Source: Bacteriovoracaceae bacterium (lineage in GTDB: Bacteria; Bdellovibrionota; Bacteriovoracia; Bacteriovoracales; Bacteriovoracaceae). Taken from it: DNA of 64,000 nucleotides. The DNA is taken from contig JAIPEG010000001.1 of assembly GCA_021737405.1 (NCBI GenBank), positions 186,001 to 250,000 of the forward strand. The letters run 5' to 3'. The position numbers and the translations under genes were made by a program. Positions 31,331 through 32,984 of the stretch are shown here, one piece after another (the stretch's first letter is position 1; each line of letters starts with the position of its first letter). The notes beneath the pieces are model-generated. The model did no database searches. It had not been told where the DNA came from and was given only the letters and a program-made list of their open reading frames with translations.

Positions 31331-31374
31331 GTCTTAATTCTAGAGATCAACAACTCAAATTAAGGAAGGATACT

Positions 31375-32007
31375 ATTTTACTTTCAAAAATTATTCAAAA
31401 ATTAAGAAACTTTAAAAGCTTAAAACTAACTCCTGAATATATCGATAATTTGCAAATTAACGAGGGGGACATTTGTATCGATTGTGGTGCAAATGTTGGA
31501 ATTATTACTAAAAAGCTACTAAAGAAAGGCGCATTAGTTTATTCGTTCGAGCCAAATCCTTTTGCATTTGAAAAACTCTTAGAAAATTGTAAGGGGCTTC
31601 CGAATCTCGTCCCAATTCAACAGGGAGTCGGTGCAAAGCAAGGCACGTTCAGACTATTCCTCCATCACGAATCAAAACAGGATCAAATAAAATGGTCAAC
31701 AGGCTCCTCATTTCTTGAAGAAAAAAACAATGTTGATTCTAGTAACTTTATCGAAGTGAAAACGACGAGGCTTTCCGATTTTATATTAAATCTAAATAAG
31801 GAAATTAATATATTAAAAATAGATATTGAAGGTCTTGAATACGAAGTCCTTGAGGATATTATAAAAACTGAAGCTATTCAGAAAATTAAACACGTTCTAG
31901 TTGAGACCCACGAGCATAAAATACCAAGTCTGGCGCCTATAAGTAAAAGAGTTAGAACTATGATTAAAGAAAAGGGCATTACAAATATAAACCTGGAGTG
32001 GCTTTAA
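31375..32007 (+). CDS. FkbM-family methyltransferase with apparent AUU start
   Basis: 210 residues when read from ATT 31375. The core has ICIDCGANVGIITKKLL, VYSFEPNPFAFEKL and ILKIDIEGLEYEVLEDI. A TTG at 31450 would remove the N-terminal helix (SKIIQKLRNFKSLKL...) usual before the glycine motif and has no SD. ATT 31375 follows AAGGAAGG (31362-31369) by 5 bases, an excellent SD and spacing. AUU starts are rare (E. coli infC). CTTAATT/AATTAAG (31333-31364) could pair around the SD. Confidence 0.75.
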   Translation: MLLSKIIQKLRNFKSLKLTPEYIDNLQINEGDICIDCGANVGIITKKLLKKGALVYSFEPNPFAFEKLLENCKGLPNLVPIQQGVGAKQGTFRLFLHHESKQDQIKWSTGSSFLEEKNNVDSSNFIEVKTTRLSDFILNLNKEINILKIDIEGLEYEVLEDIIKTEAIQKIKHVLVETHEHKIPSLAPISKRVRTMIKEKGITNINLEWL

Positions 32008-32108
32008 TAGGTTTTCAAACTTAGAAGTTTTTTATACGTGAAACCATATTTATTCGCCTTACCTTTAGAGTTTTATGGCCCTCTTAAGAGCTAAAAAGGA
32101 AGGAAAGT

Positions 32109-32984
32109 ATTAAGAAAAGCATATATCTTACAGGCTCTACAGGCTTTGTAGGTACATCAATTCATTCAATGCTAATCAAAAAAGGTTACCTTGTAATTAG
32201 AGGCGACAGAGCAAAAGGTTATCCTGAAAGACTTAGTGATATTGACTGCGTCATCCATCTCGCTGCTAAAGTACATGATTTTAATGAAAACTCATACGGG
32301 CCCTACTATGAATCCAATGTACGTCTAACTCAAGAACTACTTGAAAGAGCCATTAAGTCTGACGTTAAGAAGTTTATTTTCTTAAGCTCTATAAAGGTAA
32401 ACGGAGAAGAGTCAGATAGACCCTATAGCGATACCAAGGTTGACTGCCCAAAAGATTTATATGGAAGGAGCAAGTGGGAAGCTGAGAAGGTTGTTCGAAA
32501 TCTTTGTGCTGACAAATCTACCTTTTATACCATTATTAGGCCCCCCTTAATATTTGGTCCTAATGTAAAGGCTAACTTCAAAAGGCTCGTAAAAATAGCC
32601 CTTAAGCCAATACCTCTCCCCTTTGGTGAAATTAAGGAAAAACGAAGTTTCATTTATGTAGAAAACTTAAGCGACCTCCTAATTAAATGTATTGACGAAG
32701 AAAAATCACACAATAGAACTTTTCTTGTACGAGACAATACCAATTTATCCACAAGTGAACTTATCTCAATGATACGGAAAATCAATGGTTCTAAGAGACT
32801 CATATTCAATTTGCCTCTTTCAATATTACAGATATTATTTAAGGTCATCGGTAAAGATAGCTTTTACACTAGATTAGCAAATGGACTCTCAATTGATGAT
32901 TCCTCTACCCGTGAGGAAATTCAATGGGAGCCGCCAGTAAATACCAAAGATGCGATTCAAGCTACACTTTCATCTTTCAAATAA
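32109..32984 (+). CDS. NAD-dependent epimerase/4-ketoreductase with apparent AUU start
   Basis: 291 residues from ATT 32109. Only this start includes the essential cofactor loop YLTGSTGFVGTSI; the first ATG (32169) would cut it off. AAGGAAGG (32096-32103) precedes ATT by 5 bases, exactly as in the gene before. Later motifs are DCVIHLAAKVHDF, FLSSIKVNGE, LYGRSKWEAE and RPPLIFGP, as in WbpV/WcfK-type enzymes that reduce or epimerise UDP-4-keto-6-deoxy-HexNAc. Converges with the GT-C gene. Confidence 0.8.
   Translation: MKKSIYLTGSTGFVGTSIHSMLIKKGYLVIRGDRAKGYPERLSDIDCVIHLAAKVHDFNENSYGPYYESNVRLTQELLERAIKSDVKKFIFLSSIKVNGEESDRPYSDTKVDCPKDLYGRSKWEAEKVVRNLCADKSTFYTIIRPPLIFGPNVKANFKRLVKIALKPIPLPFGEIKEKRSFIYVENLSDLLIKCIDEEKSHNRTFLVRDNTNLSTSELISMIRKINGSKRLIFNLPLSILQILFKVIGKDSFYTRLANGLSIDDSSTREEIQWEPPVNTKDAIQATLSSFK

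Follow-up and report, generated by a model that had tools for sequence, protein, structure and literature searches.

Two consecutive genes with apparent AUU start codons in a surface-polysaccharide locus of a Bacteriovoracaceae bacterium

AUU start codons have been reported for pcnB of E. coli (PMC9410913), pncA/BBE22 of Borrelia (PMC13398362) and rcsD-Hpt of Y. pestis (PMC10191623). In S. aureus reporters, the non-canonical starts of cvfC1 (AUU) and ccpN (AUA) reached about 10% of the expression obtained with AUG (PMC13009471), and the GTC (GUC) start of Streptomyces sigR is repressed by IF3 (PMC5472188). The original prediction for the locus described here held that the known AUU starts are limited to a few genes, with infC as the example, which, given the published cases of pcnB, pncA, rcsD-Hpt and cvfC1, was too narrow. 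AUU starts outside infC are already known, and the two genes considered below add members to a known kind. They resemble pcnB, pncA and rcsD-Hpt as non-infC AUU-start genes that annotation can miss; unlike these single genes with experimental support, they are neighbours and are predicted from sequence. With cvfC1 and ccpN they share a non-canonical start combined with a Shine-Dalgarno sequence (SD), whereas the staphylococcal genes have extended SDs and conserved start codons, and the SD at this locus is ordinary and relatives do not share the codon. The likeness to sigR lies in a rare start on a non-infC gene; IF3 repression is a feature of sigR, which differs from both genes in codon and function.

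To our knowledge, two AUU-start genes in a row are unusual. The pair lies on the plus strand, flanked by minus-strand genes, in a 64,000-nucleotide stretch (the window) of a single draft assembly (3,361,565 bases, 56 contigs, 84% complete). Gene 1 (31375-32007) encodes an FkbM-family methyltransferase of 210 residues counted from ATT, and scored above the profile cut-offs for both Methyltransf_21 (PF05050, E 6e-20, 72.5 bits vs 22.7) and TIGR01444 (E 1.6e-26, 93.5 vs 37.7). Gene 2 (32109-32984) encodes an NAD-dependent epimerase/reductase of the extended SDR type, 291 residues from ATT, which matched PF01370 (E 4.6e-28, 98.7 bits, cut-off 20.9) and has homologues that are 36-41% identical; no equivalog profile reached its cut-off for this protein. 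Characteristic motifs are intact in both products, namely DCGANVG, EPNP and KIDIEGLE in gene 1 and TGSTGFVG and YGRSK in gene 2. Because nearby genes encode a relative of pseudaminic-acid-type cytidylyltransferases, sugar epimerases and an undecaprenyl-phosphate glucose phosphotransferase, the region is taken to be a surface-polysaccharide locus. Searches of plasmid, viral and genome collections yielded no close relative; none nearer than 41% identity was found, and gene 1 has no clear orthologue. In one relative (G022:C100:298552-300198, minus strand), the best gene 2 homologue is immediately preceded by an FkbM gene, in the same order as here, and the epimerase starts with ATG.

As had been predicted, the sequence AAGGAAGG, exactly five bases and then ATT occur at both genes. 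The SD occupies 31362-31369 in gene 1 and 32096-32103 in gene 2, both on the plus strand, and is followed by the spacers atact and aaagt and by ATT at 31375-31377 and 32109-32111, respectively. On both strands of the 3.36-Mb assembly, the 16-base pattern AAGGAAGG-N5-ATT was found 10 times, compared with three for its reversed control. Among these 10 matches, only those at gene 1 and gene 2 are gene starts; the other eight open no gene, seven leading into frames of 1-20 codons and one lying inside a long frame. The same SD also serves ATG genes of the assembly, for example at C1:24791 and C26:105948. Pairing energies were calculated with the standard anti-SD sequence, which was assumed because a search of the assembly, 84% complete, yielded no 16S gene. 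On this basis, pairing amounts to -7.9 kcal/mol for gene 1, among the best 16% of 736 ATG starts, and to -8.4 kcal/mol for gene 2, within the best 11%. Both SDs are therefore good but ordinary in strength, and both stand at a productive distance (register spacing 6, equal to that of infC). RNA folding over the two ATT starts revealed no special structure, and a promoter and terminator scan gave sites at chance level only.

For gene 2, the ATT start appears nearly forced, since no canonical start precedes the NAD-binding motif and the relatives have ATG at approximately the aligned position. Its stop-to-stop frame (32088-32984) contains no ATG, GTG or TTG until 32169, a position already past TGSTGFVG; the claim that this motif precedes the first ATG was thus borne out. 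The downstream ATG also shows poor anti-SD pairing (-3.8 kcal/mol). Six near relatives (L013-L018) have an ATG start no more than about two residues away from the aligned ATT. For example, the start of L014, MKKIFITGSNGFVG, aligns with that of gene 2, IKKSIYLTGSTGFVG, so that ATT AAG AAA (I K K) stands where such relatives begin with M K K; for L017, the agreement rests on its own ATG before the same NAD motif. Taken together, the alignment and the frame strongly support ATT as the probable start codon. A programmed frameshift from an upstream ATG at 32075 was considered and rejected: translation from that ATG runs to 32113 and would need a +1 shift, and the homologues lack an N-terminal extension. 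The short frame itself (32075-32113, plus strand; 12 codons, MALLRAKKEGKY) has no SD, and its TAA shares one base with the ATT of gene 2. Reinitiation coupling from this frame to gene 2 is possible but unsupported.

The start of gene 1 is less forced, because a TTG at 31450-31452 preserves the conserved domain. The original prediction that homology requires both ATT starts consequently holds for gene 2 but not for gene 1. It is conceivable, though unlikely in our judgement, that only gene 2 starts at AUU, with gene 1 translated from this TTG and the AAGGAAGG before its ATT being accidental. The conserved FkbM region begins at about residue 27-30, just past the TTG (codon 26), so the whole domain would be kept; the leader has only 19% G+C, and its coding score is not significant (scores as high as those of the two leaders are reached by 19% and 43% of the open stretches that precede SD-ATG starts). 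However, the TTG has no SD: its duplex energy is -0.9 kcal/mol, compared with -7.9 kcal/mol at the ATT, and all 26 confident TTG starts measured in the genome pair better than -1 kcal/mol, with 88% reaching -5 or better. Moreover, all 16 matching homologous frames have at least 55 residues ahead of the matched region, and an AAGGAAGG with the exact spacing of gene 2 would be a coincidence. The AlphaFold model of gene 1 (pLDDT 40) was too poor for use. We therefore regard the ATT of gene 1 as a well supported, though not forced, candidate start.

The same genome also provides the classical case of AUU initiation. Its infC (G000:C26:19543-19752, locus L051; 250201 in the minus-strand count of the pieces read) starts GGAGGTGTCCTATT, with ATT behind GGAGGTG (GGAGGTGTCCT-ATT). 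The SD-ATT arrangement of infC recurs in seven family members (G002, G004, G005, G006, G016, G011 and G035) and in two members of a sister family (G061 and G069). The lineage therefore does use AUU for initiation. As in infC, which is known for IF3 autoregulation, AUU stands behind an SD at a similar spacing in genes 1 and 2. In contrast, the SD of infC is far stronger (-13.2 vs about -8 kcal/mol), and infC has kept its AUU throughout the family, whereas the AUU of gene 2 is not common to gene 2 relatives.

A wider scan covered 2.65 of 3.36 Mb (79%), in which 2,518 genes were called with a dicodon score, and retained codons that follow an SD, lie no more than 15 codons from the upstream stop of the frame and precede the first canonical start by 15 codons or more. 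In this portion of the genome, ATT outnumbered every other non-canonical codon that follows an SD at gene starts, with five cases against 0.62 expected (Poisson P ~5e-4); the expectation was drawn from non-start codons, and the counts are approximate, having come from a simple gene finder. ATT, ATA and ATC combined gave nine against 1.4 expected. The five ATT genes are infC, a lipoprotein gene, an uncharacterised gene on C15, gene 1 and gene 2, and a register spacing of 6 from SD to start is common to four of them. The genome thus contains, besides the pair, infC and at least one further ATT-start gene. The excess of SD-preceded ATT suggests that annotation of this lineage misses AUU starts.

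We consider it likely that both members of the pair are intact genes of the polysaccharide locus and that their translation begins at genuine AUU codons, which would be placed by a good SD at normal distance. The SD AAGGAAGG would hold the 30S subunit on the start and partly offset the weak codon. As AUU is a poor codon, with reporter expression of about 10% of AUG and with the IF3 repression of sigR as a parallel, low and IF3-sensitive translation is to be expected. Initiation may accordingly run several-fold to about ten-fold below that of AUG and lower still where IF3, which discriminates against AUU, is abundant; initiation at these codons, its low level and its IF3 sensitivity are all inferred. 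Such starts would probably keep expression of the pair low. For the AUU of gene 2, the most likely origin is replacement of ATG by ATT within this lineage, and a weak start may have been tolerated, or perhaps even favoured, since the cell would need only small amounts of methyltransferase and sugar reductase.

The idea of low or IF3-linked expression thus survives as an expectation for AUU generally; a deliberate or coordinated link is not supported, given the ATG of the gene 2 homologues and the ordinary SDs. That selection has made the AUU codons into a coordinated device by which both genes follow the level of IF3 or the growth rate seems to us quite unlikely. Two consecutive genes share the same SD and spacing, the infC of this genome also starts at AUU, and a same-strand neighbouring pair among five random genes arises in about 0.5% of draws; however, this last figure was computed post hoc, and the SDs are weaker than that of infC. 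A deliberate link also fails the sole available comparative test, because ATG is the start in relatives of gene 2. The data are accounted for equally well by drift to a start that is weak but sufficient. A broader proposal, which we hold to be distinctly improbable, would make AUU, perhaps with AUA and AUC, a general tuning device outside infC, with the pair jointly set to low, IF3-dependent expression that ties surface sugar chemistry to translation-initiation status.

Decay, in which start-codon mutations cost both genes their expression, is very unlikely. The ATT of gene 2 does look derived, because relatives have ATG, but the frames are full-length, the motifs of both genes are intact and good SDs have been kept. 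Least probable are assembly or sequencing errors at both ATT codons: the data do come from one draft assembly that is 84% complete, yet this would take two independent errors, each hitting the start codon of an otherwise open frame.

Under the favoured reading, in which both genes start at AUU, gene callers restricted to ATG, GTG and TTG would miss or shorten both, and an epimerase called from 32169 would lose its NAD-binding loop. The predicted N-terminal peptides are LLSKIIQK (residues 2 onward) for gene 1 and KKSIYLTGSTGF for gene 2. If the pair proved to be IF3-dependent, such control would extend to a surface-polysaccharide locus. In addition, the genome-wide SD-ATT set offers a short list of candidate AUU starts. 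Its lipoprotein gene (G000:C22:118355, plus strand) encodes 465 residues, and the signal peptide IRAISFLILLTFLLTGC requires the ATT start behind AGGAGG. Elsewhere, a PrmC/HemK-like methyltransferase gene (G000:C37:194663, plus strand) has an apparent ATC start behind AGGAG, with the first canonical start 84 codons downstream. Finally, about 13.4 kb to the left of the window, in the same polysaccharide region, a membrane protein gene (G000:C20:172615, plus strand), perhaps encoding a polysaccharide polymerase, apparently starts at an ATA that overlaps the stop codon of the upstream gene (TAATA).
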